Shown piece after piece: positions 13 to 49,200 of a stretch of 64,000 nucleotides of DNA; the stretch's first letter is position 1; each line of letters starts with the position of its first letter. The translations under genes and the position numbers were made by a program. The notes under the pieces are model-generated. The model was not told the origin of the DNA and ran no database searches. It worked only from the letters and a program-made list of their open reading frames with translations. Origin of the DNA: Chrysoperla carnea (lineage: Eukaryota; Arthropoda; Insecta; Neuroptera; Chrysopidae); assembly GCF_905475395.1 (NCBI RefSeq), contig NC_058337.1, positions 104,898,368-104,962,367 of the forward strand. Reading direction: 5' to 3'.

Positions 13-2884
13 GATGTACATCATGGGAATGGTACCCAACAAATTTTTTATGATGATCCATCCGTTTTATTTATTTCAATACATCGACATGATGATGGGA
101 ATTTTTTCCCTGGGACTGGAAGTCCTACAGAGGTATGTAGAATCTAATAGTACGATTGTTTACTGGTAAAAATTAGAGCAGCACTCAATCACAGTTTACT
201 GATACAACACACTAACGGTATAGCATTCAGCTACATTAAATTTTTGTTTTATAAGGTCGATTAACTCAGGGTACCAGAATCGCTTTGTAACAATCGTTAG
301 CTCGTGTTTTTTGGAAAAACTGATTTACCATTATCTATAAAAAGCGTAAAGTACACCGGATTTATTTAATCCGGTGAGTATTTAACCAGGTCTATTGAAA
401 GCAGATCTGTTTACGGCAAAATGGTTAACAGATATTTCAAATTTAATTTTTTTATCATTACCGTTTAGAATCAATCTTTTTACTACAAAGCCAAACGGGA
501 GATAGTGGGTAAATCTGGGTACACAAAATGTGGTAAAACGCAATCATTATAAAACGTATACTGTCTAACGTTTCAATGCAATGGAAATTTCTTTTGAATT
601 AAAAAATTATAGAGTAAGAGCCAGCGCCTGCCAGACACACATTAAAGTATAAAAGCTGAAATTTTTTTTGCGTATTCTCACTGGTGTAGGGACCAATCTT
701 TGGGGGCTACAAACCTTGACTAACGGTTCCTTCGGTAGGTAGCAGGTAATCAGGGGCGCAGTACCCGAGCTCGCTCACGTTAAAGTATAAAAGCTGAAAT
801 TCACACAGAGTGTTCAAATGACCATTTTAAGTCAATATTGAAAAAGACATATCAATCCATCCAACTAACATTAGAAGACATATCGGTCAAATATTCAATA
901 AGTAAATCGTCATAGTTGTATAAGCCATAAACGGTTAGTGATACAAAAAAAATTAGTTTACAAAAAAGTAGGTAATTTAATTATCTACAATAAAAGTTAT
1001 TACCATTTTTGGTCTAAAGCGCACGGTTATGGAGATATAGCCTAAAACGGTTTTCCTTAAAATGGAGGCACTTCCCCCGCTTATTTTTGTAAGGATTTTG
1101 TGCTTATACATTCAGTACGTGATACTGAACATATTTAAATAATAAAATAACTCTTGCAGTGAAATAAGTTCATAATCATGGAAGAATTGTGTATTTTTGC
1201 ATTTGACCTTCTACCACGTCTGGGGGAGTGTTAACCCCTTCGGATTGATCTGTCTTTTTCAATATTGACTTAAAATGGTCATTTGAACACTCTGTGTGAA
1301 TTTCAGCTTTTATACTTTAACGTGAGAGAGCTCGGGTACTGCGCCCCTGATTACCTGCTACCTACCGAAGGAACCATTAGTCAAGGTTTGTAGCCCCCAA
1401 AGATTGGTCCCTACACCAGTGAGAATACGCAAAAAAAAATTCAGCTTTTATACTTTAATGTGTGTCTGGCAGGCGCTGGCTCTTAGTCCATTACATATAA
1501 TATTATTTGGATTTCAGTGTGGAATTGGGCCTGGTGTTGGTTTTAATGTAAATGTTGCCTGGTCTGGTGGACTAAATCCACCATTGGGTGACGCCGAATA
1601 CCTTGCTGCTTTCCGAACCATTGTCATACCAATTGCTAAGGTTGGTTTTCTTACATAAAATGATTAATTTGTCAATTCTAATTTTTTCTTTTATTTTACA
1701 GCAATTTGGACCAGAAATTATACTTGTTTCGGCTGGTTTTGATGCATCAATTGGTCATTTACCACCACTTGGTGGTTATAAAGTCTCTCCAGCATGTTTT
1801 GGACATATGACTAAAGAGCTCATGCGAATCTGTGATGGAAAAGTAAGTTCGAATATACGCTTCAAACAAAATAACAAATTTTAATATTATATTGATATTT
1901 TTATTTGTAGGTAGTTTTAGCGCTAGAAGGTGGTTACGATTTGCCAGCAATATGTGATTCGGCTGAAGAATGCGTTAAAGTTTTATTAGGTGACGAACCA
2001 TCCCCGATTGCTCATGAAGAACTTTTAAGGCCTCCTTGTCAAAATGCTATTGATACTTTACAAAAAACAGTAGCTATTCAGGTATTCATTTAATTCATTT
2101 GTGTTTCTTGTTTTATCTGTTCTTTTCACAAAACCAAGCTAAAAAAAGTGCAAGTCGAATTTCAAGTAATATTAGTGTTTCGTACAAAATTTATTTTTGA
2201 TTTATGTTTATGTGTTTTTAAGTAATTATGAAACAAAAGTCCACCATTTTCTACTCTTTACTGTACAGTTTTAACTCAGTTTATCATATGTATTTGTTTT
2301 CATGCAAGATTGCATTGTAAGTTTCAAACATTTACATCTTTAAACCACCTTTTTAAAGACTTTTTTGACTTAAAGACTTAAAGACAATTAACGAAAAAAA
2401 ATAGAAAGGGGCACCGAAATGATTTTCATATGTATATCATTTTTACAATTTTGTTACGAAACACTAAAAAAGAGGAGTATCGTAGTTTTTCCATTTCTTT
2501 CAGAAAATTGTTGTATGTATGTGTTTTTCTATATGTAATTTAAATTACAGCATTCACATTGGCCATGCGTAAAACGAAGTGTTCATTTAATGCCGTGTTC
2601 ATCAATAGAGGCCGCCAAATTAGAGACCGAAGAAACCGAAACAGTAACGGCCATGGCAAGTTTATCAATGAAGCAAAAATCTATGTATGTCGATAATTTA
2701 TACTAATTGTGTGACTTTGTGTTTTTCAAATAATTGATTTCAGGCTGAGGAAGCCAACTCGTGATATTGCTTTGTGTGTGTTTACTTCGTGAGATCTGAC
2801 AAGATAATCGCTAAATCAGATATCTGGTTTCATTTTTATAGGACCACCATACATTCCGGTGCAGAGCCAATGGAGAACAACTAA
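13..2884 (+). CDS. HDAC4: Class IIa histone deacetylase (HDAC4-like), C-terminal part
   Basis: Partial gene; the 5' exons lie before the window. Coding exons read as 13-132, 1518-1640, 1702-1842, 1911-2081, 2551-2684 and 2842-2884, all GT-AG and phase-consistent. The product is the second half of a lysine deacetylase catalytic domain, which in this family works in nuclear co-repressor complexes bound by MEF2. Visible landmarks are DVHHGNGTQ (two zinc ligands, Asp and His), [18 protein letters not shown] (third zinc ligand) and [13 protein letters not shown]. The catalytic-position Tyr is kept in LEGGYD, whereas vertebrate class IIa enzymes have His there. The tail SGAEPMENN resembles the acidic EEPMEEEP end of vertebrate HDAC4. 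An alternative last exon with acceptor at 2743-2744 would give another short tail. Intron 133-1517 holds a fold-back transposon. Identity is confident; the exact C-terminus is less so. Confidence 0.92.
615..1485. mobile_element. TA-flanked fold-back (long-TIR) DNA element in HDAC intron
   Basis: The arms at about 617-849 and 1252-1483 are near-perfect reverse complements of about 230 bp. The outer ends read TAAGAGCCAGCGCC on the left and GGCGCTGGCTCTTA on the right, so the TIRs are bounded by TA, the target duplication typical of Tc1/mariner-type elements. Each arm itself contains a short direct repeat (TTAAAGTATAAAAGCTGAA). The 400-bp centre shows no transposase ORF. The right end lies only about 30 bp before the HDAC exon at 1518. 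Confidence 0.8.
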
Positions 2885-25203: not shown

Positions 25204-28200
25204 ATGTCTAATAAATTCGAAGCGTAAGTTATTTAAATGTCAACAGCTGGTCTTAAATGCCTTTTAAATATAACAATTTATTTACGATTAACAATTTAAT
25301 TAATCTTACATATAAGTTCTTGCATTTTTAAGTAATCAACTTTTAAATATTTGTAATCTCTAAAAATAACTTCTATTTTTTCCTTGTTGAAAAATTTTAA
25401 CCTAATAATTTTGTTTATTTTAACTTAATTATGAATAAAAATTTAAATAAAGTTACTTTGTTTAACTTTTATAGAATAAACTTTTAATTGTTTTTTGCGT
25501 TTTTATTTTGGAATACAACTTTTTTGATTTGATTATTGAATGATGTTCTTTTTTTATTGTAGTTTAAAAGAGCATGGCGCTGACAGTACAGATAGCGGAA
25601 GTGGTGATGATTTAGATGTAAATACAGTAAATAATACACAAGACTTAGCGCCTCTAGAAATACCTCCAAATGAGCACCGGTTACAACATACGTATTGGCT
25701 ATGGTAAGTGATATTTTTAATGTTTGTTTAGAAATAAGCGTTCATTAAAGTACCTCTTTGACTCCAGTTCAGAGAGCATTTGATCAGACTAATACTCGAT
25801 CTTAAAAACTATGAATACTAGATGTATTCTTAGTATTTGTTGCTAAATCATTCAATTTGTTGCGCTTCATGTCTCTAGGTATTATCATTCTTGATATATA
25901 GCACAGATTATAGTTTATTACATAAATAGATAGGCAACTCTACTGTTCATGAAATGTCCAAAAACTCCCCTGGAGAAAGGCACTTACAAAAAACTATTTT
26001 TTTTAATGGCAGGAATTAGGTACTATTCGAAATATTTCTATTCAGTTTGTCATTTTTTTTAAAATTTTATTGTATTTTTTTGTTTTCTAATTAAATAAAG
26101 TGAAATTTTTTAAATAAAATAATAATTTATTCCAATATTTGAAATAAAATAGCATGTTTATTTTAATATTAACATTATTAATAACAATTAATTATTAGTT
26201 TAATGTAAGTTAAATGCAATGTAAAACCAAATTTACCAAATTTTCAGCCAATTTTAATAAGGGAGGCCTTTAACCATTTAGTTTCTGCAGGGTTCTTTTA
26301 ATGATCAATATAATAACTTAATATTTTGGTTGATTTGGCGTTGCACTATAATATATTGGCGGTGCGTTATTCGGATAATGTACAGGTGCATTATTCGGAT
26401 TACTCGAAACATTATACGATGGTGGGGCATCTACTACATACGGCGCTGGCTGTTGTTGTACTAAAAAAATTTAAAACAATTAGTATAGAATAGACACTTT
26501 TTTCACAAAGTTTGTTTAAGTCCAAAAAATGTCATCTAAATTATCGAAACCGTTTTTTAATCGTTCAATTAATTAACAAAGTTAAAGTTCAAATTTTTGC
26601 AAGGTAACATAAACATCTGTTATGAACTGTTTTGAATCCAAAGCGTTTATATACATAGAGAACGCGAGTGATCTGCTAGACTGTAAGTGTATGCGATATG
26701 ATGAATGAGAGAGAAGACTGCCCCTGTTGCCCTGTCACAGTCATATATCATTATCATATGATGCATAAAGATTTTGTGTCTGCTATTATACTTGTTTTGT
26801 ACAAAGAGGTTATATACAGTTTTTTATTATTTTTTTCTGAAAAATGAAAGTGTTTGATTTGCATATTCTTCAATATGTGGCCGCAGTTTATACGAAGTAC
26901 TTAATTTGTTTTTTTCAGAAATATTGGTAGATGAAAGTTTCTTTTGACGCTTCTACTTTTTGAATAACTTTTAATGTATTAAATAATATTTCATAAATAG
27001 TTTTTTTAACTATTTACTTAAAAGCAATAATGCAAACAATATGTAGCCAATGACATATAGATTAGACAAGGGCACAGGATAACTCACTGGTAGTCTTCTC
27101 TCTCTAATTCATCAAATAGCATGTTTTGGGCCCTGGCGTTCTCTAGTTGTATAAACTCTTTGGTATATGTACTATCAATTGCCATAACAAATGACACCGT
27201 GATTCATGGCGCACGTTTCTGAAATGTCATAATTTTTTTAAGCGAGTATATTTATTGCAAAACACTTTTAAATGTAAATATTTGATTATATCAATCAATT
27301 TTTTGGTACCTACAATCGATTCGACGTGTTTTTGGTACATCGAAAAATTTCCTGGAAGTAAAGTAGTAATGCTTTGATTCGAATAATATCAACAAAGCTT
27401 TTAACATTGGGGCATGTTTAATAAGATAGCAAACGAATTCCCAAATGTTAATTAATTAATTTTTTAAGTCGATAAATCGATAGTAACAAATTTATTTACG
27501 CGAGTATTTACTAATTACCTGTTATAACATGTTGCTGAGGTGGTGTCGCAATATAACCTTCTCGTCCGTTAACATTTACTAAAGTTATCTGATACCCTGA
27601 AACAAAGTAAAACTTGTTAAATAAATTCTAGTATTATGAACGTATAATTATTGTGGATGTTACACTGCATTAAATAAAAACTGCATGCACAAATTTTTTG
27701 ATATATATATATATATATATGGAATGACATGTCGGATTACAGGGGGCGTCGGATTATCCAGGGAATTACCGGAATTCCACTTTTCTCCCAAAAATATTTT
27801 TATACCATGTATATGAAATATATTAAGGTATACTAAGTTTAGTCCCAAGTTTGAAAAGCTTAAAAATATTGATGCTATGAACTAAATTTTGGTATAGGTG
27901 TTCATAAAATTACCTAATTAGTCCATTTTCGGTTGTCCGTCTGTCATCACGATAATTCAAAATATCATGATAACGTCTTGGGTCCGTAGGACCCATTTTG
28001 TAAACCGTTAGAGATAGAACAAATAAAAAAAAATTCCTTATAAAAAATAAGCAACTTTTGTTTGAAAATTATTTCGAAAATATCACTGTTTACTCGTGAG
28101 GGTGCAAATTAGGTTCGAGTATTGTGTAGTAAGTATTATATGAGAATATTAGTCATGTGTGTGTGCCATGTATGTATGGCTGGCTATCTCCCTCTTTACT

Positions 28201-31200
28201 GACATGACGTGAAAAGACAAACGATTTCGTAATCAACACTGTCTATACATGGTATTTCAACAATTAACTCAATCAATTGTTTGTTTTCACTTGTTTATCA
28301 GTGTACTTGAATAAAAGAAGGCGATAATGAACTAAGACGTCATTTCCGGTTTTAAATCATTTTAGTAACAAACAACTTTTAAACTAATTATTTAAGAATA
28401 AAAAAAACGATAACGAAAAAATAATTTACACGAAGTTTTTACACCAATTTTTGGATATGCGTTTGAAATAAAAATTTCTATACCTTGTTCTGCAAGAGCT
28501 TGTTGTTGCCTTCTTTGTTGTTTTCGGTAATTAGCACCACTCCAACAACCAAGTCCGCAACACAAGAAAATAAAACATAAAGAAAATATCGGTATTAAAA
28601 ACTCTGCTGCCATTTTTTCACAAAAATATTAAACAGTTTATTTGTAGAAATTCGTAAATAATAATTTTTTATTGAGATATTGATTTTAATTAATAATTTT
28701 AATATCTTATCGTATTCATGTTTTTATCTCAGATAAAAGGATATCCAAATTCCTTATAATTACTATTTACTATTGTGACGTATACAAGGTGATCCATGTC
28801 ATAATAGCAGCAGCCCCGAATTTAGGAGAGGGTAAACCGGGGAAAATGCGTCGAATATTATAATATAAATTGGTTTCCGAAGTTAGATCCAAGTATATGT
28901 AGAAAAATAGAGACGATCTAGCGAAAAATATTTAAATTACTTGAATGCAGTTGATTTTAGCCAGGAATTTGCTATATTAAAAAAGCGCTAGTAGTCGAAA
29001 TTCACGAAAAATCAAAGGCATTCGACCTGTTTCGAAATCACGAAACAATCTCTCTAATCTTTAGAAAAAATCTCTTTCTCCGTCGGGATCTCTCCCAGGA
29101 TAGATGGATCCAAGGTTTCGAACTCGAACATCTGAATCTAACGCCCTGTAGATTTCTACAGGTGCAAATAACCTGTATGGATGTTTCGTCATCCTCCGTA
29201 GGGCTCTACAAGTGGGATCATTAGCGATCTCCATATTGTGAAGGTGATAGTTCAATCGACAGTGTCTGGCAAGAGTCCCACCACCTTTCTCAACTGTGCT
29301 TTACTAAGTTTCAGGCGAGCACAGTCGCATGGTCTAGCTGTGATTATACACAATTTGGCCTGTCGCATGCCCTCCTCAAAGTCTTAGTAATCAAGATGGG
29401 CTTGTCGAAGCCATTCTTTGATTCGGTAAATTACAGAGCATCTTGCTATGGGAATGACAGGCTCAGGTGAAAGAGGCGTTTGAGACGACTCCTCTCGTGC
29501 CAACGAGTCTGCTGCTTCATTCCCTTTAACGCCTGCATCTAAATTCCATTCTTAAAATTCTTTACCTCCATGGGCGTAAAAATTTGGGGGATTTAGCTAC
29601 CAAAAAAAAAACTTGGGACTAAACTTAGTATACCTTGATATATTTTATATATACATGGTATAAAAATATTACAAGCACTTACAGTTAACACTATCTATAT
29701 ATGATATTTCAATAGTTAACTCAGCTAATTGTTTATTTTCACTTGTTTATTTATGTTTAATGTGAGTTTCTTACAAATAAAATAATTGTTTACCTTGTTC
29801 TAGAAGAGCTTTTTGTTGTAATTGTTGCCTTCGTATTCCCCACAAACCAATTCCAAACACAATTAAAAAGACAATTAAAAACACTATTGGCATAATTATG
29901 AATTGTGCCGCCATTTTTTTTTTTTTCAAATAAATTAGTAACAATAATAATTTAATTGATGACACAAATGGTTTGTGCTTTTGATATTATTATTATTTTA
30001 CTGGAACTTTTAAAATTAATCATATTAATATATAATCATAAAATATTTTTTTTAATCTATGAAGGATAACAATTGGTTATTTTTATATCGTTTATAAGGT
30101 GTCTCTGTGAACAACAGTCGAGTTTTGTGCCTTGCATTTCAGTTTAAATTTGTATGTTTTTAAAAATCATTAAAAATTATAACAATAGAAACAATCTGGC
30201 CTTACATATAGCAATTATTTCTACACTGAAAAAAAATTAAAATAATGACAACCTCATCCCGAAGTTGGCCGTTTCATATTGAAATACAGTAAAAATACTC
30301 TCAAACAATTACCTAACGATTGGAACAAGTACAGCTAAATATTTGTATTTACAATATAATGGAATTGAATTTAAAATATGAATTCATTGATACAAAATCA
30401 CTGAAGTGATATAAACAAAATCATTACTTCCAGAGAGAGATTGATTTTAGTTCAAAGTCATGCATTTTATTGATGCAAAATAAAATTGTACTTAGTTGGA
30501 ATATATAATCGTGTAAATAAACACAATTGCAATTTAGATTGCAAACCTTTGGAAAACAGTTTATAGCGCCGTCGTTTTCGTTTATTTGTTTGAAAATCGT
30601 AAAAAACTAGTTTAAACCAAAAAGTTGCATTCGTGTAACTTTTTTGGAGGGCCTCAAATAGTTTGGTTAAATAAAAAATAAATTTGCTACGTTTACCGTT
30701 TATAAAATATTAAAAATTTATTAAATTGTAAAAATTGTTTTAATTATAAAATATTTATAAAAATAAATAGTTAAGTTAGTAAAAGCGTAATTATGTGACG
30801 ATATTTTAGGGCGCTTTTCTCTTAGTGCAATTGCAATTTGCGCTATCCATTTTCAAAATAAATACAATAGCCAAAAAGCCGAGGTTTTAGCGTCTAAAAA
30901 GTCGCCCTTAGATCCACAATATATTCTGGTATATCTGTATCTTAAATGTTAATTATATTTACAAAATAGCATTAAATACATTTAATACTTCGTTTGGTCC
31001 GAGATTGAAGTGTATCCAGAGGCCTGGGAATAGTTTGAATTATATGGTGGTGGGGACTGTGGTCCGGGTGGTGGTACCTGTTGCACTAAAAAAAAATTAC
31101 AATTAATAGTTTAAGTTAATTTTTTCCCTTAAGTATTGTAAAAAAAGTTTTGATTTATTGCACGGTACATACATATAAACCAGATACATGCTTTGTAGTC

Positions 31201-34200
31201 AAAAAATGTGTTATTTTTAGCTTTACAATACCACGCAACTCCATGTGCAAGTGCTGCTTATAAATTTTATAATATCTCTCTTCAATCATCAATATTCTAA
31301 CTATAGTCGTCTCTGTTTATCAAATGATGGACCTTCGATGAACTCATAATTAAATTAAACTTTTGTTTTTGTACCATCGACAACTTTATATTTTTATGGT
31401 ATTATTATAAACTACAAGATAGTCTAAATATTTTAGATAGTTTTTTATCACACTCTCTAGATTTTTTCGTATAGAAATATCCAATTGAAAAGGATATGAT
31501 TCATCATTTTCTCAGCCAACTTTGAACAATAAAATAATAACGAAAAGCCCGATGACCTAGGAATTTTTTGTGATTTTTGGAAATTTTGTTTATCAAAAAA
31601 TGTATTTTTTGTATTATAAATACGTATTTCGATTACAATTGTTTCACAAAAAATCGTTTTATGCTGTAGGCGTGAGACGTTATAATTACCTTGTACAACT
31701 TGTGGTTGTTGAGGTGGTATTGCAATGAATCCTTCTCGTCCGCCAATATTCATAACGCCAATTGAATAACCTAGAGGAAAAAAAAAAAGAGAAAAAGGAT
31801 CAATATAAAATTCGACTAGAATTTGTAATATATTTATATAGGGTATTAGAAAAGTGTCGGAACAACAGAAGAACATGATTAAGGTAGTATGAGCGCCAAG
31901 GCAAGTTTAGACTTTCGCTTGGAATTATTTGTACCTTATTTTAAATTTGGATGATTAATTTTGTAATAACTTCTTGAATGTAGACGAAAAATAAGAATAA
32001 AATATTTCGATATCTGCCTTGGTTTTCGAAATATCGAATGCTAAATAATTCAACAAAATTTTCAATGAGATGAATCAATTATATATGAGCTTATGGTTCA
32101 AAACAAAAGTTTACCGTATGATTATTTTCAAAAAATTCATTCTTCAAGGGGGTAAAATAGGAGATGCAAGTTTATACGAATCATTATCATTTTTGAAATA
32201 CTTGTATGCATTTAAAACACTAGGAAGGGTCAATTCTTACTGGAGGATCAACTTTTCCTGTAACATATATATATATGTATTAATGATAGAAAATGAAAAA
32301 TTATTTTAGGAAATTGCCTTTAAATGATTTTAAAATAGCAATTTTTGCAGTTTTTTTGGAGATGCCCACTAGTAAACGCCCTAAACACAACTCTTCTCAG
32401 GTGTCAGACGTACTTCAAATTTAAATTATTAATTTAAAGAGTAAAATCTGTAATTTCTGATTAATTAATTCTTAATTTATTTTTAACAATAGAAATTTAA
32501 AAAGCATATTAGCATATTCTGAATAGCAAATCTTCATCAAAACTATGATTTTGGAAGATTATAAAAAACATTTGACTGATATTCAGGGGTCAAAACTTCA
32601 GGTACCTATTTCAATTTGCACCGAATTCATTTTTATTCCGAATAGATGATATTCATTCATAATTTTAATTACAAGTATTCATCAGTCAAAATTAAGAGTA
32701 TAAAGACTGCATTTCGCGATTAAATAAATTTAACACGCAATAACATAATATATTTTTGAATAAAAACAAAAGACCTTGATAATGAGTCGATATATACCGG
32801 CTGGTTCTATATAAATTTCCCATCTCAATTATTTATTAAAATAATATATGAATAATAATAAAAAGTCAAGTGTGAGTGGACCTCACATGGCTACAGTTCC
32901 ACCCCGCCATTAATAATGTCAAATAATTTGTAAATTTGATTCAGTTTGACGCAAATTTGTTTAAATTTCGATTTTTGCCTCAATTTCCTAGATCATTTTT
33001 TTGTATTATATAAATACGTATTTCGACTACCAAGTAGACATCATCAGTATGAATTATCTAATCGTAATAACTCTTATTGTGTATTCGTTGCTAATTTGGT
33101 GGCGAACTGCACCTATGTTGTCTGTATGTCCTTCTGTCTGTCGACACGATAATTCAAAAACGAAAAGAGCAATCAAGCTGAAATTTAATGCGTGCTTAGG
33201 ACGTAAAAAGTGAGGTCGTGTTCGTAAATGAGCAACATAGGTAAATTGGGTCTTATTTTGTAAACCGTTAGTGATAGAACAAAAGTTAAAATGTAAGAAA
33301 TGTTCCTTATAAAAAAATAAACAACTTTAGTTTGAAACATTTTTTTGTAAACATCACTGTTTACCCGCGAGGGCGCAAATTCGGTGTAAACTTTATAGTA
33401 TGTATTATATGGGAATATCAGTTATGTGTGTATGGCTAACTAAGAGTGGATATCTTTCTTTACTTACATGACGTTAAAAAACAAACGATGGCGTCATCAA
33501 TACTGTCTATACATGGTATTTCAACAATTAACTCAGTCAATTGTTTTTTTTCACTTATTTTTAATGTAACAGTACCGTATTGTCAATCTAGTATAATTTT
33601 TTTGATAAATGTGAAAGAAACACACCTTGAAATGTTTACATACACTCGATAATGGGAAGCTTTTTAGTGAAACTTCCGGTATATTTCATAAAATAAAACA
33701 AAATATTTAATAAATTACCTTGTGCCGCCAATTCTCGTTGCAATTCCTGTTGTTTGCGTTGGTAATAACATGCGTAACCTGAAGCCAATATTACAAATAA
33801 CACAAACACGGTTATCATAATGTACATTGGGGTGTAGTCAAATTGAAAATCGTGTTTTGGAAAATTTGACATTGTTGTTATTGTTATATTAATAAATCAC
33901 TTTTCTTAAAGGAACACAAAAATCAAAATGTATTTGTTTAAACAGTTCATATAAGAATGACATAATAGTTTCATAATTATATTTAGTTGATGTGTTTTAC
34001 CTTGAAATAAAAAAATCGGGTAAGAACTCCACACAACTTCTATGTACGTTTTGTTTATTCACTCTCACTTTTCATTTAGGTTAGGTTAGAGTGGTTGTCT
34101 TGGCGTGGGACACACTTAGACCATATCATCCGTTGTGATGTCAAAAAAGGGTTGGCCCATCCCCGGTCACTACTCCATGAATGGAGAGGTCGTTAAAGAA

Positions 34201-37200
34201 AGACTGGCTCAAGTGAGTCCATCTCCTCGTGGCAAGAGCTGGGTATTGACAGAGAAGATGAGATCTCGTTTCTTCCTCTGCCTCACTTTGACAGCTCCTG
34301 CAGTATTCATGATACACTATCAGGCTCAGGAGTTCAGCGTGCCTGCCTGCCGTCTAGCCATTGTCCTATAATAGCCGCAACAATTTTGTGAAGGCCTTTG
34401 GAAGTGATATAGGATCTTCGGAATGCCTACGATTATACTCAAGCTATATCTGTCTTGTAATAAGTATCACAAGTACGTTCCTCCCTTCATCTAAGATCGG
34501 CCTTTTTTAATTCCCGAAACTTCTGGATGTTTATTGAATGTAACTTAACACTAATATAGCTCATACATCAGAATAACACATGAGCTATAATTTATAAAGA
34601 TATATTAAAAAAATTAAAATATAACATTTCATTACGCAATCTATGAGCATCACCTGTGTATAACAATACCCCTATTTCTAGTGTTATGGCAGAGGGATAA
34701 GGTGTGAGCAAGAGAGGTGGAATCTATAATGCGGTGGTCTTTATTTTTAAGCCCAGTGAAGCGGACAGGTATCAAGCTAGTATTTGATATAAATAATTTA
34801 AAAAACGACACACCCTATTGTACACGCAAGGAATATCGAGATTATAATATTAAAAATCGATTTTGAATTTGCAACAAATCCTTACGTTTTAGGGTCCCCA
34901 AATCGCAAAAGTACCATTTTTAGTCATTGACTATTTATGAATATCTCCGTGCGTGATATCTTTTTTAATTTCGTACCCGTTTCTGTCCACATTACTTGAA
35001 AAAAAAAAAAAAAAATGAATTGGACCGTATAATCGTTGCTGCCTATTACTGGCTCAATATATTAACGGGTGTTATAGGGCATTGACTTGGAGGAAAAAAT
35101 GCACTTTGATACAGTACACCACAACTATTGGAGGAAATGTCAAAACGAAGGAAAGAATAAATTATACTTTTAAGTCAATCTTTGTAGACATGTCAGAGTT
35201 GGAATGGAAGGTCGACATAAAATATTCAAATCTCTTCTACTCTTTCTTCTTTAGTTTCTGGACGTGACCTCTTTTAAGTACCACAATATTTTGAAGCTAC
35301 TGCAACCAACTGTAATCTAACCTAATGTTTAGTTTAGTGTAAATGCTTTCTGCATAAATCTAAGGCCCACTTCATACGATTGACATTTAGGTTGCAAACG
35401 TGGTGGGAAAAGGTTTGTAAGCAGTTGATTTTCGTGGTTATTTATTTAATAATGGTTAAAAATTATTTTGCAGCTAAAAGTGGCATTCGCGCTATGAGGA
35501 CTAAGGATTTTTAGGGTTAAATAAAAAATAAATTTACTACGTTAGGACCGTTTATAAAATATTATTTAAAATTTATTAAATTCTAAAATTTGTTTTATTA
35601 CAAAATATTTATTAAAAAAATAGTTAAGTCAGTAAAGGCCTATTCATACGAAGACTTTTTAGAGCGCTTTTTGATCAATTTTCGTTGTTGCTCTATCCAT
35701 ACCATTAATGCGTTTTTGAAATCAATAACAAAAAACGTCCGAATCTCACGGATACTTTGGCTCATTATCATAAAAATATTTTACTATAATATATTATTAT
35801 CTTAGATATTAAATTTTTTATATTTACAAAAATTAATTATTCCTTGATTGCGGAACATGAATAGCACCAGAGGTAGCAAATTTTCCAAATTCACATTCAC
35901 ACTATAAAATTAGTTAAAAGGACTAGCAATAATAACTGTGTTCGATGTGACCGACATATTTTATTGAATTTTCACGCATAACAATTTCAATTATGTTAAC
36001 TTTGAAAACAATTCTTACAAACCTTTGAAAAAATTAAATGTCTATTGATTATAGTGTGAGTTTACAAATATTTCTGTGAGGTGGCGCTTATTTTGGTTCT
36101 GTACCTCTAGTACTTCGTTTGATGTGGCATTGTAGTATATACAGGTGGGTGTGAATAATTTGGATTATATGGTGGCGGGGCTACTCCAGACGCAGTTGGC
36201 GGAGGATGTTGCACTAAAAAAAATAAACAAATTATGTTAAATAAATAATTAAAAAAGGGTCGAGGAATTAAGCAATAAATTAAGAACGTTTTAAGAAAAA
36301 ATCAACAAACTGTGATATTTAGTAAATTAATAATTTAACCAGTCACGTACAATTCGGAATCGTATAAGATTAGTTCCGTACCATCGTACCGCTATAACAA
36401 TATGTTAAAATTTGTTAGGTAATTATATGACGGAATGGAACATTTGTAGTGGCAATAGTAATACACAGTCTCAAAATTTCAGCTGTCTAAGTATTGAGTT
36501 TAATGAGATACAGCCTTCTGGCAGATAGACGGACGGGTAGGGAAGTCTTAATAATAGGGTTCCCGTTGAAAATGTGTGTTATAATTACTTTGTACAACAG
36601 TTCGTTGAGGTGGTGTTGCAATAAATCCCTGTTGTCCATTAACACTAACTACCCCAATAGAATATCCTGGAAAAAAAAGAAAAAAACTTTAATAGAATAA
36701 TACGTAAAAGAAAATTTTTATCTTCGTAATCATGTATGAAATATTTTGGTATTTATTATAAATATTTTCCTTATGGTTTTTTTAATTCATGGAATTATTT
36801 TGTAATACATTATCTTATTTATAACCACAACAACTCATCGAACGATTATGTAATATTATAATATTATCTAATAATATTCTTTTCGCTCTTACACTAGAAA
36901 AAAAAATTTAATAATGATTACCTCATCTCGAAGTTGGCCGTTCCATATTGAAATAAAGTAAAAATACTTTCAAACAATTGCCTAACGATTAGAACAAGTA
37001 TAGCTAAATATTTCTATTTACAATAGAAATAGGACTGAACATAAAATATGAATTCATTGATACAAAATCATTGAAGTTAAATAAACAAAATCATTACTTC
37101 TATGAAAGAGTTTGATTTTAGTTTTAAGTCATGCATTTTATTGATGCAAAATAAAATTGTACTTAGTTGGAATATATAATGGTGTAAATAAAGCGAATTG

Positions 37201-40200
37201 AAGAATTAAAAGAAAATTTCTTTGCGTTTGCTTTAAATAGAGTATTTGGTAATAATGATCGCATATCCATCATGTCTAGTTATCTTAGGACACTAAGATA
37301 AATAGTATCACTTTGTCGCGGATTCAAATCCGACTTGAAAATATCTAAATTTGTTTTATATAAAAATATTAGCAGGAAAAACCTTTTATTTTTTTCTACC
37401 TGCTTGTGTCGTGACAATCACATCAGTATTTTGTTATAATATTTATAAATGGTAGAAGCAATCAAAAAAAGATTGTTTAAAACTTTGTTGCATTTCATAA
37501 CAACAATATATAAAATTTGTTGGGCATTATATTAGTAGGTGTATCACATTCGTGGCATCATTCTTCATATATGATCTCGCGATGAGGTTAAGACAATCTT
37601 ATATCGTTGGTATTAAGAATTTTTTTTCAGTGTACTGCATATATATTTAGGTTTTTCCGATAAATATTTAGTCACCCTTCAGTGAGAAATATCATAACTA
37701 TATTGATGGTAAATCGTAGATAATGTTGAAAATAATTTTTTTATAAATGATAAAAGAAAAATTTACCAAAGTCTGCACCTTGCACTCAAAATCGTAGGTT
37801 TCTGTGAGCGTTTGATAAATCAGATGAATATAACTATACTAATTTACAGTAATACTGTTCAAACATGTACATGCATGTTTTATTACCAAAGATTGGTAAT
37901 AAAAGGCATATGACACAAGTCAAATGCATGGTAGGGATAATAAAAAAGACGTCAGCGCTTCCAGTGAATAATTTTGGCGTTAAAAAGTGCTGATATGAAG
38001 GCATTTTAATTTTTTACATGTAAATAGTATAGTAAATGTCAAATGAAAATTGAAAAGTAATAATTAATTAAACTTGTTGCATTAGAAATTGTGAAAATAA
38101 GAAACAAAATTGCATAAATATTTTTTAAAAGTAATTTAAACATAATTACTTATTTAAATTTGATAGAAAATCAAATGACTATTTGCAAGCAGCAAATAGT
38201 CATGGAAACAAAATTTTCCATCTCAAAGTTGAAGTGATTAAATTATGAAATCATTGGTCGTGTTTAGTTATATAAATTTTATTTGTGATAAAAAAAGAGA
38301 TTGATAATGTATGGCGATATTAAATTTCTAGAGGACCTACATTTTTGTTCGCTTATTTTTATGCTGAACAAGCCTATTAAAAATTTTATATAAATACCTT
38401 GCTTGCGCCGCAAATTCTCGTTGAGCCTTCCAATGTTTACGTTGGAAATAATATAATAAAAATACAGCCACTATTAAAAATATCACAAATACTGTAATCA
38501 TGATATACGTGGGCGTTAAATCAAATCCGGAATCTTTTTTTGGAGATTCTCCCCACGAGTCCCCCCATTTTGGAAAATCTGACATTTTGTTGTTTAAATC
38601 AATTTTAAGGATAACTCAACACAAAAGCTAAACTAACTTTATTGACGACAAATTAAGAATACTGCTGTTGTTTTCATAATGCTTATCGTTAGTTCATGTT
38701 TACCTTGGTATAAAGAAAAAAATTTACATGATGTTTCCCCATTTTATTTCTTCTTTATATTTTCTTATTATAAGGGGGGAGAGTAGTACCATGGATCAAA
38801 ATTTACATTTATAATATATCAAAAGAGTAGTCTCTGTGTATTGCACTATTATTCCTATAAACTACGCATTCCTATGTGTGCAGATAAGAAAACAGTGTGT
38901 AAGTTTTAAATTAATAGACCATTGAACAACGCGTGTGGTGGGTCTGGTGCGACCTTTGAGGTCCACACGAATAACTTCTCTGTATAAGAAAGAGTTATCA
39001 TAATAAACTCGACCTACTCGAAACGAGAAGTTAATGTAATCAAGTCAGAGGAAAAATTTGGCGTTCGGTGAACGTAAAAAAAATTCCAGAGCTTTCCCTG
39101 GAACTATAAGATATAGCAAGTAATATATTATTTTAAAAAATTTCGTTATTACAAAAGGTTGAAAATATACCCGGTACCACTAAACGGATCGAATTATCTC
39201 GTTGGACTTGTTGAGAGCAAATAGAGTAACATGATGATATCAGGCTTATTAAAAAAAGCACAAATATTATTAGCATAAAAATATAAAATGGAGTGTCATT
39301 TCTGAAATCTGACATTTTATTATTTTTAATCACTTTGAAATAATAAACATTAAAACTAAACTTTCTTTAATAATAGAGTGGTAATATTATTTCTTATCTA
39401 TCATTATTATATTTAATTGATGTAAGTTACCTTGGTATAAGGAAAAAATTAACTGCGGACTATTATTATACTAACTTGATACCCGCCCGCTTCACTGAGT
39501 TCAAAAGTAAAAACCACCGCTTTATAGCCTCCACCTCTTTTGATCTCACTTATCAACGTTCCATAACACTTGAAGGGATTGTTCTACGCAGCTAAAAGAT
39601 ATGCACAGTTTTCAATTTTTTAAATTGTAAAGTAATCATAATTCATAGAGTATATCAGAAAAGGTAGCCATGAATTGTGACATTTACTATTTTAAATTTT
39701 TACAGAAATCTTTAATTTATGGTTCAAAATGATGATCATAACTCTTCTCCATCTGTGATCATCAATTAGAACCATAAATTAAAGATTTCTTTTTAATTTA
39801 TAGCTCACGTGTTATTCTGATGTATGAGCTATATTCTGTACAGTTTCATTAAAAACCATTCGCTAGTTTTTGTGTGAAAGCGTAACAAAGAAACAAACAA
39901 ACATCCTTACTTTCACATTTATAATATATAAGGATTCTGCTTTGCATTGTTTTCATTAGTATGAAGCATATAGGCGGTGGACGCGAATCGTAAAATAGAG
40001 AACATTCTTCACATAAAAATATATCTTTGAATCGAAAATAATTTTACTTGAGCTAAATTCTGGGTTTAAATTCAAAGTATTAAAAAAATATTTCATTCTT
40101 AGCTAAGGAAAATGGCATACGGTACCAAACATTTGTAATTTTTATCTCAAGAAAATCTTATGTTGATTTGTTAGAAAAAGAATTCCAACCAATGTTTTGA

Positions 40201-43200
40201 TTTTTTTTATATTCTATGTACATATTAGTTGAATAAATCTACTGGATTTTGATAAAGAATTCGTTAAATTTTTGCAAATGGCTAATTTTTTTCTTAAATA
40301 AGTTTCTTGTGTTGTAAAAACATACAGAAAAAGATTTTGGTGTATATCAATTACATTTATTACCACATTACACAAACCAAGATAATTGTCTCAACTCAAG
40401 ACAACAATGGATTTGAATTGAGTTTCTTGAACTTTAAACTGACTTCATTTTAATATTTTTTGTTAGCTTTAGTATTTATACAAAAGCGGAAGTTGGGATG
40501 CGTTCTTAATTTAAATTCCAGAAAAATTTTGTAGTAATAACTCTTACGCCCAGTATTTCAATTAAAGTTTAAGTGAAGACATTTTTTGAGCTCTCACTGT
40601 ATTTTACATGCAGGTAGAATGGTTATTTTATACAATCCTCTGTTTTGCCTTTTCGTCTTTGGGTTAAGCTTTCAAACTTATTAAAAAAAAAAAAAAACTT
40701 GAATATTGACATAAAGTACTAAATGTTGACATAAAAACAAATTCAGAAAATTGTAACTTTTAGAGGAGTCGCTGTGTTTTACAATCGACAGATTTTTCTA
40801 TGAAAACCGTGATTCTGAAAATATTAAGCCCGTTTTTTGCTGTTAATAGCGTACATACATGAATTCAAAATATTATTTAGTTACCTTGTTCCTTTAATTC
40901 TACGCTAGGTTTGGTTTTTTCTTGTTTTTTTGTTGTTTTTTCCCGAGCCGTATATTGTTTTTTTATTAAATGCAAACATTTAAAAAATGCATCCAAAGTT
41001 GGAAAACATTTACATATTAAAAATATACATAATATAATGAGTAACACAAATGTTACGATAGAAGTAATTGTTGGGAGATTTTCTTTAAAATCATCCCAAA
41101 ATTTTTCTAACCACCCTTTAGGATTAAAACCATCCCAAAAATTGTCGAACCATCCCTTGGGATCAAAACCATCCCCTATGTTTTTTGAAAAATCTTCTAC
41201 TGTTTTTGAAATATCGTCAACTTTCTCTTTTAGAAATTGGCCACTCTTTTTTGAAATATCTCCAACTTGCTCATTTAAAAATTGACCACTCTTTTTTGAA
41301 AAGTCTTCAGCATTTTTTGAAATATCTTCAACTTTGCCATTTATAAATTGACCGCCTTTTTTCGAAAAGTCGTCAACGTTTTTCGGAATATCTTCAAATT
41401 TCTCTTTTATCGCTTGAATATTCTTTTTTGAAAAATCTTCAACATTTTTTCCAAAATGTTGTAAGTTTTTTGAAATATCGTCCCAAAACATTTTATTTTA
41501 TTCACTAACTTTAATTAACGATCACAAAATTAAACTAATTTGCTTGATTTAATAATGCGATTATTTTATAAAAATTTTATGTTTTTATTGACGGGTATTT
41601 CTTTGTTTTAATTTGGGAGGAAAAATATGCGTGGAGAATCCCCACTATCCAATTTGACAATCTTTTCATTGGTATTATCTTATTGGCAGAGTGGCGCATG
41701 TCATAGAAATTTTTTTCTTATCTATGAGGAACTATAACATAACTGGTCTAGCTGCTAGTTCTTGCCATGTATGCGGTCAATGTCCAGTAACATTTGTTTA
41801 GTATTCTGTTAATTTTCTATAGGACCCTTTTAAAAAAAAATTATTCACGTGACCTAGGCCATGGTTCTTTGGTTGTTATATATAATATTGGTGTAATATG
41901 CGCAAATTATATAGTATGTATTATATGGGTATATCAGTTATATATGTGTGACATGTAAGTATGTGTAATGTGACAGAGTAATTAACACTATTAAACTTTT
42001 GTTTTATCTCTAACGGTTTACAAGATGGATTCAACGGATCCAAGACCCAATTAACCTATGTTGCTTATTTACGAACTCGACCTAATTTTTTACGTCCTAA
42101 GCATGCTATAAAAATTTCAGCTTGATATCTCTTTTCGTTTTTGAGTAACAGACAACCGGGAATGGACTAATTAGGTGATTTTATGAACACCTATACCAAC
42201 ATTTTGTTCATAGTATCAATATTTTTAAGCGTTACAAACTTGAGACTAAACTTAGTATACCTTGGTATATTTCATATACATGGTATAATAATGGTTAAAA
42301 AAATTTTATTTTTTACTATTTTAATGGTAAGAAGTTCAATAATTTTTTTAAAAACTTTTTGTTTATGTTTATTCTTATTTGTAGAATGCCTGAAGAAGGA
42401 TCATAAAGATCCGAAACTAACAGCAGTTTAAGAATATTGTAAAAAATAATAAAAATATATAGCGAAAAATCTGCGAAAAATAATTTTATATTAGAAGTTT
42501 AAAAGAGTATAAGAATCGGTAATTGTTGATTTCTACATTACCTCCTTAAATAAATTAAAATAACCTATAAATATTTATCAAATGCAACAATTTTTGCACA
42601 TCAATAACTCGAAAAATAAATATTCTAAATGTAATGGAATTTGACATGCACAATTTGAATTTTAAAATGTATGATTAGACGGTTTTTTAGGGAAAATAGA
42701 AAAAGAACAAAATTTATTATATATACTACGTGTGGATCGCGGTTTTTACATTGAGAATTTTGCAACTCAAACGATTTTACTCACTAAAAATGGTTAAATT
42801 TTAATATTTTTTCAAGTTTTAAATAAATCTTATAAAATATTGTTTATATACCTTGTGCCTGAGCAAGCCGCCTTTTACGACGCAAAAGACATGATGAAAT
42901 TAGGATTATTATTATAATTATTTTAAATATTATGATCCAAAAAAAGATTGCGTTACGTCCGAATATCCCAGTATCCGAGGAATCGTTTGTGAATTCCGTC
43001 GGTAAAAATTCTTTTGAAGTTTCATCTGTCATTTTGTTTTAATTTTAATTTACTTATGAAACTAACTGAACACAAACACAATAAACTAACTTGCTAACAG
43101 TTGGTATGATAATGATGCTGTGATTCAAGATTCAAGAATGTGTGTTCAGATGATATCTGTGTTAGCTGATATGAGGAAACATATGTGTGTATGTTTGGGA

Positions 43201-46200
43201 ATTCCCCACTGTGCATTGTTTTCCTTACTATTGGCACACTATAATTATTTTGTACGGTATTTCCAAACAAATCAACGCTTTTATACACTTCAAAATGTTT
43301 ACAATCATGTAACTTTCTTATTCTTGGTTCTTTTGGACTCTTCTAAGAGTCATTTTAAGGAAAAAAAGGCTATTTTAAAAGTGCGCTACTCCAATATACT
43401 CTAGAGACAAAACGCGTGGGCTGTTTTTGATGATTCAGCAGTCAATAGACTTGTCTTAGAATAGGATTTAAAACATTATTTCAGTAAAAAAATCAACAAG
43501 GCCTATAAATTTAATCATAGTATTGCGTAATTACCTTGTGCCGCTAATTCCCGTTGGATCTCAAGTTGTTTACGTTGAAAATAACATGCTAAAGCAATGA
43601 TCGATATTACAAACAACACAAATATAACCATAAAAACAATCATTGGGGTGTTATCAAGACCAAAATGCGAAGAATCATGTTTTAGAAAATTTGCTGTCGT
43701 CCAAAATGGATCTGATGTTTTAAAATCTGACATTTTGTCGTAGTTTTAAGTCACTTCTGAATAACGATCACAAAAATTAATTAATACGATTAACGACAGT
43801 AAATTTAAAATTGACGATATTGTTCATAAATGTTATAATTAGTTCACATTATGTGTGTGTTGTCCTTGACATGAGAAAAATGAATGTTTGGGGAATATCC
43901 CCACTAAATCCATTTTGCAAAGTTTTCGTTAGAATAAAGCATAGTGGCGCACGCGACAAACACAATATTCTGATTCTCGTTGAGTTTTTCAATGAAAATA
44001 CGATGCTTGAAACTATACTCAACATTATTACGTCAGATAATTAAAAAATGGATTCAAAACAGTTTTAAGCTCTCAAAAATTCGTTAAGATGGCTCTAAAT
44101 TTTAAACACGGAGAACGTATTTTGTGTTAGTAACACAAAACTAATGTGCTATTCCTTTTTCAAGGAAACCTCACCAATCTAGGTACTATAAAATTAAAAC
44201 ACTTAAATTAAATTTCAATTTTTTTTTGTTGGTAAGATTTTGTAGATTGGCTCAGTTTTATTGAATAGAAGTATACATACATAAAAATAATCAAAATAGT
44301 TTTTAATTACCTTGTGCCGCTAATTCTCGTACAGTTTCCCGTTGTTTACGATAAAAATAGCATGATAAACATACACCCAATATTACAAACAACACAAATA
44401 TTACCAAAAAAATTTTAAATATTTGTGGAAAATCATGTTTTGGAAAATCAGATCCAAAAGATGTGGAATCATGTTTTGGAAAATCAGATCCAAAAGATGG
44501 GAAATCATTTTTTGGAAAATCAGATGGATTATTACCGAAATTAAAAGTTTTATCTCCTATCGTCCATGTTGACATTTTGTTGTTTTAAAATCACTTTTAA
44601 ATAACTGAACACAAAAACTAAACTTACTTGTTTAACAATTAATTTTTGAATGACGATATTGTTTATGAAATTTTATTAATAAGTGTTACTTTGATACAGG
44701 AAAATTATTTTGGGTAATTCCCTACCTCTATTCCACTTACAATACCTCCATTAACCATTTATAAAAGTTGTTATTAGTATATGGTAAATTGGCGCAGGAA
44801 CTCAAATTTTTTTTCTTTTATATTTATTATTTTATTTTGATAATATAGTCTATAAGTTAAAATAGACCTTTTTCACATTTTTTTTTCTTTTTTTTAAATA
44901 AAAGTAAATGTCTTGTTAATTAATTAAAAGTAAATGGGCTAATTTTTTTCTCCGATTTTTTTGAAGCCATATGACCGAGAAAACAGACAATGAAAATCAT
45001 TAAAATTCAAATTGGCGAAAACGATCCGGAAACACACGATGTTACACGAAGCTTGGTTTGACGTCATTTAAAGTTGATAATAGTGATATATGTATTAATT
45101 AATACAACTGTTGACACTGTTTTATTGTCATTGCTTGTCGGATTGACATCACAGATCAGGTGTGCGGTGGAGCCAAAAAAAAAATCGTTTTAAAATATTT
45201 CATTATTATTAACAATTTTTTTCATAGTGTTTTAATTATTAAAAATGCGTAATTTTTGAGTTTACAGGCTCTACTCGACCTATATTTTCAAAAAAATTTG
45301 GTCGTAATTATTTCGTTTACGGATGCGCCAGTATGTGCTTGTCTAAATATTGTACTTTTTGTCTTATTTGTTGTTAAGGATGTTCCAGCATGGTATTTGC
45401 AGTTTCTATGTTAAAGCAATGGTACAATTTTTTTTTCGACAGAATTTAACGAAAAATTAAATTTAAGAATTTAATAATGCTTACTATTAATTCCCAAAGT
45501 TTCAGAAATTTTGACCGTTTAAAATGGGAAATAATTATGCCAACGTCCCAATTTCGATCAATTTACGTCAAAATTAATATCTCGAAAGTGAAAATTAATT
45601 TCTAAATTTTTTTTTTAGAATTTTATTGTATAAACATTTTTTTCTACTTTTTCTTCAATATATAATAATATCATAAAAATTGTTGGAGAGACCGGACATT
45701 TTACATGCTTTAAATGGGACATGACCCTCGAAATCGCGAACTTTGTCTTTAAATATCTCGCGATCTAAACGGTCAAAAATTATGAAATTTTAGGAATTCA
45801 TAAATAAAGCTATTATAAACCCGAGAAAAAAAATTCGGCCAAATCTGTCGAAAAGTGATTTCATGCTGGTACTACCTTAAAATATAATTAGTGTAAAATC
45901 TGTAGGTATTTGGTTTGATGACGCGCGATCGATGGTAATTCCTTCCTTTTTATTATAAGATGTTATGCTATTTACACGTTAACGTGCATATAATGTTTAT
46001 TGTAATTTTAAAGGCTACTAATGTACCACGTAAATAATAGTAATAAACTTATAAATATTGGGTGCGTTTGGCGGAAAAAAGCGCTTGAGAGCGCTTACTA
46101 GCGCTGAAAAACAAACTGTACAGTTTTAACTCTTATTATTTCATGGAATTCACATGCTATTACTGCATTGTTATATTTGGAGACTTAGCAAGAATTACAT

Positions 46201-49200
46201 CTCCTGTATTTCGATTACTTGCAAGAATATTATACTAGCGGTTACCCAAGGCTTCGGTGTCGTATAGTATATAATTTGAAGGTTACAATGTATAGTGTCT
46301 TCAGAGCGCCACAACCTATCATGCTTGTAGAACAGAGCGCTTCATGTCATAAATGATTATATTTAAAAACTATTGTTTCTAAATATCGCAGTCAAGATTT
46401 TACCGTGAAAATATGAAAATTTTTTTACCTACACGGGGAAACGTGTAAACTAGACACTGAAGAAAAATGAAAGATTGGGAAACCTGTCAATATATCAACT
46501 ACAGATTCCTAATATTTTTTAAAATAATAATCACATAAGTATACCTAAAAGGGCGTCAAATGAATGACTCGCCGATGCGCCTAGATGAATAAGGTCGGCC
46601 TTGAATATATCCATCTTTTTTATCCAACGGTAGTTGCCTGCTGTCGAATTTGCCTATTACCTATAAAAATTTTAAAACTAGACTTGATACCATAACAAAA
46701 TTTGAAATTGAAATTAAAATTGATTAAAAAAGGAAGTTATAAGCATTTAAAGGTTGTTGCTCATCTCCTTTAAGCAAAATAGTTTTATGTGTAATCTTTA
46801 TGGCGATACCGTGCAATGACGTCACGAAACAATATCTTCCTCTTTGTTTAATTAAGAATTTTAAACGTTCATATGTTGCATACTACTAAAAATTTTCAAA
46901 AACAAACTTCACTTTTCTGTCCGACCAGTGAGAATTCTTCAAATAAAGTGATAAAAAAATTTATTCAACATCTCTATTGTACATGAAAACTAATGATCCG
47001 AAAGCATGCGTAAAAGTTGAACACTAAATCGTTTATCGGCGCTATATATAACTTGTATTTCTATTACATGTGAAGGTCGCATTTAGTAAATTAAATGCGA
47101 TGGGCTGGGCTTTATGATTTATTTATATTTTTCCTGGAAAATACTTTGATGAAAATAATTAAAGTTTATAATAATTATTATTCTTCTACAGTTATGTACA
47201 CACTTATATCACAAGCTCGCGGCTTTAAAGAGGGACAATCGAGGCAATTTTCTCGTCCAAAAAGTAATTATCAAACAACTTGCAGCTTTTAGCCATAAGA
47301 TACATGGGGGCACTCAACTTTTAACCCAAGGTGGGAGGGGACAAAGAGAAATTTGGGACCTAAAAAGAAGAAAATTTGTAATTTTTGGTCTAAAAATTTT
47401 AGAAAATTCAACAATATTTTAGCATAAACATACATTTTGCCAATAAAATTTGTGGTTTGTCTAGGCCCAGAGGCGGGCAGCCACTCCTCCCTGTTTTCCT
47501 CTTGATACGCATATGATAAAATTATGGACTTAGTTGAATGTAGCTATGCTAGAAATCTCAAATTCTAGAAATCAGTGTCTATTTATTAAGAGTTCTTAGG
47601 ACCCAAAAAATATGAAAATCTAGCTTATTTAATGTTATAGAATTTTTCGAGACACCTTCAGGATCGATTCACATTAAAAAAAATCCATGTGATTTTCACA
47701 TTTTTTAAAAGATGGTTGGATCTGTAGTTTCTGAAATGTAACCTAAAATCGTATATGAACACTTATCGTTCAACTGCAAAATGAACCATTTTCCTGGTAG
47801 GACACCAGAAAATTATTTAAGAGATTTTATTTTCCCAAAAAAACAAAAACAAAAAAAAAACAGGGAAAATTGATAAATTATATTGAAAAACCGGCTTACG
47901 CTATGGTTTTTCTTTTGCCATTGGCTAAATAAAAAAAACCAGAAAAATTTTTGAATCCATCTTCGTTACGACTATTATGACTGACTTAAAAACGTTTTTA
48001 GGTACTTACATAAAATGCATACCCAACGTAATTCATTATGGTTGAGCATATCTCTGTTGTCATATCACAAGTGTTTTAAAGTCAATTAGAATTAGATAAA
48101 CAAATAAAACGGTAAAAATTTTATATTTGTGTTTATTTTTTTAGGTATTCAAAAAAACCGTCATCATTACGATATAGTCAAGCGTTACAATTAGTTGGGC
48201 GTGTAGCAACAGTTGAACAATGGTGGGCACTATATAGTCATATGATACGATTAAATGATTTACCATGTCACACAGACCTGCATTTATTTAAAGAAGGTAT
48301 ACAGCCTATGTGGGAAGATGCGGCAAATGCAAAAGGCGGCAAATGGGTAACTATTTACATTTATTGTCTTACTGTTCAATTTGTTTTGCTGTTTTCACTA
48401 AAAATAATCTTTTCGTTTTTTTTTAGGTGGTGAGACTGCGAAAAGGTCAAGTTGGTCGAGCATGGGAGAATCTTTGTATGGCAATGTTAGGTGAACAATT
48501 TATGGTAAACATAAATTTTATTTTAATTGAAATTAAAGTCCCTTTTTCAATTCTTACTATAAGTAAAAGTTTTTTTTGATAAAAATGCTCACAATGTTTA
48601 TCTTAAACATTTTTTGATCGAAAACCAAGTGCGAAAATAGTCTGTAAGATGAAACTTGACTTGCCTTGGAGTCAGAATCTCTATTTAGGTTATTTTTACT
48701 TGTTGTGACTATCTTTTGCATGAGATACAACTGGGTCATAAAATTCGCTTTAGTGTCTAGCATAATTTGGTTTGTTTCCAGCTAGTATCGAAACATTTGG
48801 CGTGTTAAAAAACAATCCGAGGATTTTGAAGACGACAGATTTTAAATTGCAGAAGTCGTCAACGTCCGAAACAATATTTTGTGAAGCTTATCGATTAGCC
48901 TTCAACGCCGCACCCGAAATTTGTCTTATGAAATGGATTGACTCAAAAAGGTTGATCCATTAATGATATTGTATCGTTCATGGTCTTGATGTGGTTCACA
49001 GACATAGAGAATGGGCCAAGCAATATCCTCAAGAAATTGACCGTAAAGACGGCGAATACCTGTCTCTTTCTCATATACATAAAAAACATCAACTTCTTAT
49101 ATATTTGTCCCTCTTATAAATTTTTGCTTTTATTTACTGTACAGTTAGATAAGAACGTTCAGCCCATTCTCAATGTCTGTGATCTGATTACAATGGCTTT

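Follow-up and report, generated by a model that had tools for sequence, protein, structure and literature searches.

Clustered protocadherins (Pcdh), UGT1A and the chelicerate sDscam genes are described as carrying tandem variable 5′ exons with alternative promoters ahead of common 3′ exons (PMC4835542, PMC9209448), and beetle gustatory receptors as carrying tandem first exons followed by one common C-terminal exon (PMC11302349), so that, on the latter account, first-exon logic is ordinary in insects. Short single-pass proteins bearing PPxY or LPxY (PY) motifs include the STMC6 family (WBP1, WBP1L, VOPP1, CYYR1) and Commissureless (Comm)/RCR, several of which are reported to recruit Nedd4-type ligases (PMC11399591, PMC5578492), and PMEPA1/TMEPAI is described with five isoforms in which differing N-termini are joined to one membrane/PY tail that binds NEDD4 (PMC7565192). 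Here we describe a locus of Chrysoperla carnea in a stretch of 64 kb (the window), where the minus strand of 26318–44575 carries nine first exons (A–I) and three downstream exon pairs (c1–c3). We consider it likely from the sequence that these form three tandem nested genes, in one of which (unit 1) alternative first exons would be spliced onto the shared PY tail of c1.

First exons and shared PY-tail exons

From 5′ to 3′, the elements follow in the order I, H, G, F, E, D, c1; C, c2; B, A, c3, and make up units of 6+1 (unit 1), 1+1 (unit 2) and 2+1 (unit 3). Several paralogous first exons lie in tandem on the same strand ahead of a common exon set, the layout that defines Pcdh-, UGT1A- and sDscam-type loci. 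A first-pass annotation of this DNA had proposed such an array, and all nine donors and three acceptors are present on the minus strand at the positions that it gave. The first exons of unit 1 are I (44311–44575; 88 codons plus one nucleotide, with an outer part of ~51 amino acids containing SDFPKHD-type repeats), H (43535–43733), G (42852–43032), F (40885–41491; outer part of ~141 amino acids with DFSKKSGQFL-type repeats), E (39171–39315) and D (38398–38585). C (33719–33872) is the sole first exon of unit 2, and B (29794–29914) and A (28484–28613) belong to unit 3. F is unlike the other first exons, with a long outer part made of repeated DFSKKSGQFLKEKVED-type units, and its Pfam matches to YtxH and apolipoprotein are weak and fall below threshold.

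Every first exon (9/9) has an ATG preceded by a nearby in-frame stop and a GTA donor at its end, and encodes 40 to 202 residues comprising an N-terminus and a single hydrophobic segment. The GT donor is in phase 1 in eight of the nine (five of six in unit 1), as had been annotated, and its context is CAAG/GTA in 8/9 and CCGG/GTA in E. The exception in phase is D, in which a four-base duplication of CAAG before the GT moves the donor to phase 2, so that splicing to c1 would shift the frame. D also holds a weaker internal in-frame (phase-1) GT at 38440, identified by eye. The junction frameshift in D leaves five of the six first exons of unit 1 usable.

The downstream pairs, on the same strand, consist of c1 exon 2 (36589–36666; 78 nt) and exon 3 (36107–36213; PPPY and PPVY, ending HQTKY), c2 exon 2 (31690–31770; 81 nt) and exon 3 (30982–31085; PPPY, ending DQTKY), and c3 exon 2 (27519–27596; 78 nt) and exon 3 (26318–26460; PPSY and PPIY, ending NQPKY). 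Each exon 2 is symmetric (phase 1-1), so that its skipping would preserve the reading frame, and each exon 3 supplies the PPxY tail and the stop codon. The shared PY tail is ~60–75 amino acids long, and that of c1 reads GYSIGVVSVNGQQGFIATPPQ... PPPY... PPVY... HQTKY. In an alignment of seven spliced models (D and F left out; four of the seven with tail c1), GYxI, GxxGxIAxPPQ, PPxYN and the final KY were among the invariant elements. Ratios of nonsynonymous to synonymous substitution (dN/dS) for the constant exons were 0.39, 0.44 and 0.49 (3/3 pairs), and these exons are under purifying selection.

A permissive tblastn search of the 64 kb window with 15 exon peptides (for F, just the C-terminal portion) yielded no convincing candidate for a tenth first exon or a fourth constant exon, in agreement with the annotated count of three downstream pairs in 2+1, 1+1 and 6+1 units; the best match off the array, of the D peptide at 2031–2162 (E 0.006), contains a stop. 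Whole-genome protein searches, in which only the best candidates were scored and the queries were A–c3, H–c1 and F alone (first exons B, C, D, E, G and I and tail c2 not being used), placed all matches below E 0.05 within the array locus. These queries gave seven matches up to E 10, ten matches and two matches, respectively, each with a single match outside, at E 6.4, E 0.21 (the best outside the locus) and E 5.9. Searches of prokaryote and viral contig collections gave 34 and 27 pattern matches, respectively, none of which was confirmed, as expected.

The same searches bear on the possibility that the locus holds nine ordinary genes, each first exon having its own unseen downstream exons, as might be the case if a tail had diverged past recognition. 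The first exons of unit 1 are followed by gaps of 577 bp (I–H), 502 bp (H–G), 1360 bp (after G), 1569 bp (after F), 585 bp (after E) and 1731 bp (after D). No PPxY string was found in these six gaps, which contain one LPPY and one LPLY, each flanked by stops in that frame, and no peptide resembling exon 2 or exon 3 rose above background in them. Moreover, the 502–585 bp gaps of three neighbouring pairs already house a promoter-like block, and those of I–H and H–G leave little room for a promoter plus two hidden exons. We regard nine separate genes as the least probable of the arrangements weighed here.

Upstream blocks, selection and competing explanations

A promoter-like block of 16 bases upstream of I (TTTAGTTTTTGTGTTC, then AGTT; 44607–44622, minus strand) starts 47 bp before the ATG, with a score reached by 0/200 shuffles. 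The block recurs 44–55 bp before the ATG throughout C–I, the other six copies matching 11 to 14 of the 16 bases (14/16 on the minus strand for both C, at 33912–33927, and D, at 38617–38632). The C–I block scored 121.5, whereas 200 shuffles averaged 85.0 and peaked at 94.6. Inclusion of A and B left a score above all of 100 shuffles, yet the best matches of these two exons were poor and misplaced. Over the 120 bp before the ATG, likeness at p ≤ 0.01 was present in 16 of 36 pairs, all of them among the 21 C–I pairs, compared to 0/36 at −360..−240, 1/36 in the first 120 bp past the donor and 0/36 at +60..180. Of the regions tested, the ATG-proximal block gives by far the strongest signal. The word TTTTGTGTTCAGTTA, with three mismatches allowed, occurs 14 times in the window versus 9.3 expected and thus has no discriminating power as a motif on its own; what counts is its fixed place before the ATG. 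At the block position, I and G carry TCAGT, which we take to resemble the arthropod initiator. Each first exon from C to I may have a separate core promoter, as the shared block suggests.

A simulation of neutral decay for exons C, E, F, G, H and I gave a joint probability of intactness of ≤5.5e-11 at 0.15 substitutions per site and lower values still at 0.25 and 0.35. The model set indels at one tenth of substitutions and used AT-rich composition and independent lineages; D (broken), A and B were left out, and F, intact in 0/3000 trials, was set to 1/3000. The six exons are thus intact beyond the neutral model and are not chance reading frames.

Several observations weigh against alternative first exons feeding the c1 tail. 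For the first exons, dN/dS, calculated from local alignments with F not measured, was just mildly below 1 (0.26–0.95 in 14 of 15 pairs among I, H, D, C, G and E), the outlier being I–G at 1.73 over 24 codons; A–B gave 0.54. The first exons are under weak purifying selection. The first exon closest to c1 is D, which when joined to it through the terminal donor meets an early stop (by eye). A and B lack the upstream block common to C–I. In the motif test, the control at −300..−180 was nearly significant (94.3, reached by 1/200 shuffles) and the post-donor control scored 92.3, which 0/200 shuffles reached, by a small margin over a null maximum of 90.8; because these control regions are not clean, part of the upstream likeness is plain duplication, with some duplicated flank surviving. 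Signal and shuffles could not be told apart by gapped global alignment of the 60 bp upstream, a test that was too lax and is not relied on here. AATAAA or ATTAAA hexamers lie <400 bp past the donor in four unit-1 exons (I, H, G and D; not E or F). Ligase binding is predicted from the PPxY motif.

Some of these points would fit a locus in which just one or two unit-1 first exons work with c1, the others being decaying copies or unspliced, tail-less genes for short membrane proteins. Besides the frameshift in D and the poly(A)-like hexamers past I, H, G and D, this explanation draws on the read-through stops, which come just 2, 2, 2 and 6 codons beyond the final complete codon of I, F, G and H, respectively, and would leave a complete short membrane protein. 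Set against it are the joint retention of ATG, frame, GT and phase 1 in E, F, G, H, I and C (neutral probability ≤~5e-11), read-through lengths that vary freely among copies, and a region-wide rate of ~4.8 such hexamers per kb. We judge decay or tail loss of this kind unlikely, though the strongest of the competing explanations.

The first-pass annotation had also spoken of interchangeable variable exons spliced to shared constant exons. Any phase-1 first exon (eight in all) would keep its frame at each of the three exon-2 acceptors, so the first exons of one unit could in principle also join the constant exons of later units and yield a larger mixed repertoire. Every constant pair, however, terminates at a stop codon and is followed by poly(A)-like hexamers, and the upstream region of A and B differs from that of C–I, as expected for separate genes. 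The units resemble tandem duplicates, two of them with multiplied first exons, and do not imply free 9 × 3 mixing; we consider cross-unit splicing very improbable. Within unit 1, variable first exons joined to a shared tail provide the best fit to the frames, the phases, the upstream blocks and the lack of other tails, with the exception that D is out of frame with c1.

Proposed function, host gene and neighbouring sequence

We infer that each promoter drives transcription, that the transcripts are spliced to c1 and that the products have the membrane topology, ligase binding and cargo choice set out below. The cluster would comprise three tandem genes for small single-pass proteins, each protein having an outer or lumenal N-terminus, one helix and a cytosolic PPxY tail. 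In the distal unit, copying of the promoter together with the first exon would have produced six alternatives (I–D, of which five are intact); each would have a core promoter of its own and be spliced in phase 1 to one exon 2 plus exon 3 pair (c1). Unit 3 would have two such first exons (B, A) and unit 2 a single one (C). A given mRNA would then encode one membrane/outer module and a shared tail with one or two PPxY motifs. The PY motifs of Comm, PRRG4, CYYR1, WBP1L and PMEPA1 are reported to bind, or to be linked to, Nedd4-type WW-domain ligases (PMC5578492, PMC11399591, PMC7565192), on which grounds we think that the tail of the array docks such a ligase, although for Comm itself Nedd4 binding is described as required for some of its activities only (PMC5578492). 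By analogy, the PY tail most likely docks Nedd4-type WW-domain HECT ligases, and the first exon, through its variable helix and outer part, may set the compartment or cargo to which the ligase comes.

Membrane adaptors determine which proteins Nedd4-type ligases clear from membranes. A more tentative proposal, to which we give rather less than even weight, is that the locus is a protocadherin-style promoter-choice array for ubiquitin-ligase adaptors, in which each cell would pick the module that sends the shared PY tail and Nedd4-type ligases to a differing compartment or cargo. If so, promoter-choice array logic serves ubiquitin-ligase adaptors instead of recognition receptors, and the swapping of a membrane/outer part against a fixed ligase-docking tail would be a natural experiment on how cargo or compartment choice is encoded. 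At ~18 kb, the array offers a compact system for the evolution of promoter choice in first-exon arrays through cassette birth and decay.

The first-pass annotation placed the array inside 4EHP, and this assignment holds: the whole array lies antisense within a single intron of ~22.4 kb (25704–48144, exon borders by eye). The 4EHP (eIF4E type 2) exon to the left of the array occupies 25563–25703 of the plus strand, with AG before and GTAAGT after, and the next 4EHP exon 48145–48346 of the same strand, these borders likewise being set by eye; when joined, the exons have eIF4E type 2 as their best structure match (E 1.9e-55). In a literature search for nested genes in a 4EHP intron of insects, none of the matches listed named 4EHP.

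Other sequences in and around the array include a block of ~310 bp (36890–37200, 311 bp) near c1 that is 89% like 30222–30529, upstream of B. A genome-wide search with this block gave 1633 first-look candidates, and all of the best 40, which were scored, matched (40/40, on contigs C1 to C6); we therefore rejected it as an array component, since a dispersed genomic repeat is uninformative on the array. A second duplicated block lies at 35376–35671. Between first exons, at 29040–29550 and 34130–34480, are fragments that by eye resemble remnants which we presume to be of long interspersed nuclear element (LINE) reverse transcriptase / RNase H. Farther away, the plus strand of 13868–19208 holds long Ser/Lys-rich open reading frames with repeated units, such as SRRTYFRTKRDTD, present twice. 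The minus strand of 53328–54785 holds an open reading frame of 485 amino acids that encodes several successive putative C2H2 zinc fingers; it lies between 4EHP and a gene presumed to encode a DEAD-box helicase.

Comparison with known PY adaptors and first-exon arrays

The predicted products have the build of Nedd4-binding PY adaptors, with one hydrophobic segment in 9/9 first exons and PPxY in 3/3 tails. Net charge is higher C-terminal of the segment in 9/9 (from −1 to 0 in E), and the outer part ranges from ~4 residues (A) to ~141 (F), the long ones with internal repeats; the charge pattern is consistent with N-out, C-in single-pass membrane proteins. The STMC6/WBP-1 family has a Cys-rich N-terminus before the membrane helix. 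The number of Cys residues before the hydrophobic segment is 0 in all nine first exons, which lack this family hallmark, described also for CYYR1 (PMC11399591, PMC5578492). The Pfam cut-off of 28.1 bits for WBP-1 was missed by H–c1 (16.9) and A–c3 (13.8), with 4/7 spliced models matching below E 0.1 (best E 0.0013); that of 27 bits for Comm was missed by A–c3 (14.9) and the F exon (15.6), with weak matches in 2/7 models (best E 0.028); and that of 27.8 bits for RCR was missed by H–c1 (16.8), with weak matches in 3/7 (best E 0.00038). The Comm GLPSYDEAL-type extended PY motif is absent from the c1, c2 and c3 tails. Matches to the unrelated membrane families MLANA, SARAF and TMEM219 are about as weak as those to the PY families, and a PDB search gave no relative, its one match within E 1 being at 0.24. 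Membership in STMC6, Comm or RCR is not supported, because the Pfam cut-offs are unreached in the tables shown and non-PY families match comparably weakly. The array thus has a weak likeness to WBP-1/RCR/Comm PY adaptors and most likely works like a PY adaptor cluster, ligase docking being suggested by the PPxY motif.

Like the STMC6 and Comm/RCR proteins as described, the array products are short, single-pass and PPxY-bearing, but unlike them they have no N-terminal cysteines and no GLPSYDEAL and fall below the Pfam cut-offs. Gustatory receptors are multi-pass proteins, unlike the single-pass PY proteins that the array would encode, although both have tandem first exons placed ahead of a shared C-terminal part. 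With Pcdh, UGT1A and sDscam as reported, the array shares tandem variable first exons ahead of common 3′ exons, and it differs in that its variable part is a small N-terminus plus membrane helix and its shared part a PY tail; we call its proteins another kind on a sequence comparison limited to Pfam.

We know of no such arrangement for PY-adaptor-like proteins. A literature search found no variable first exons joined to constant exons in insects under those terms, and the matches listed for PPxY proteins from alternative first exons in arthropods were unrelated by title and abstract start. The first-pass annotation knew of no described insect family of this form, and the combination was not met in the literature searched; its logic is known from arthropods in the accounts of sDscam (PMC4835542) and beetle gustatory receptors (PMC11302349), and varied N-termini on a PY tail from that of PMEPA1 (PMC7565192). 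As described there, PMEPA1 resembles the array in placing varied N-termini on one PY tail, whereas its forms are isoforms of one vertebrate gene with a membrane domain conserved between them, compared to the paralogous first exons and variable membrane segment of the array. Each half of the arrangement has known precedent.

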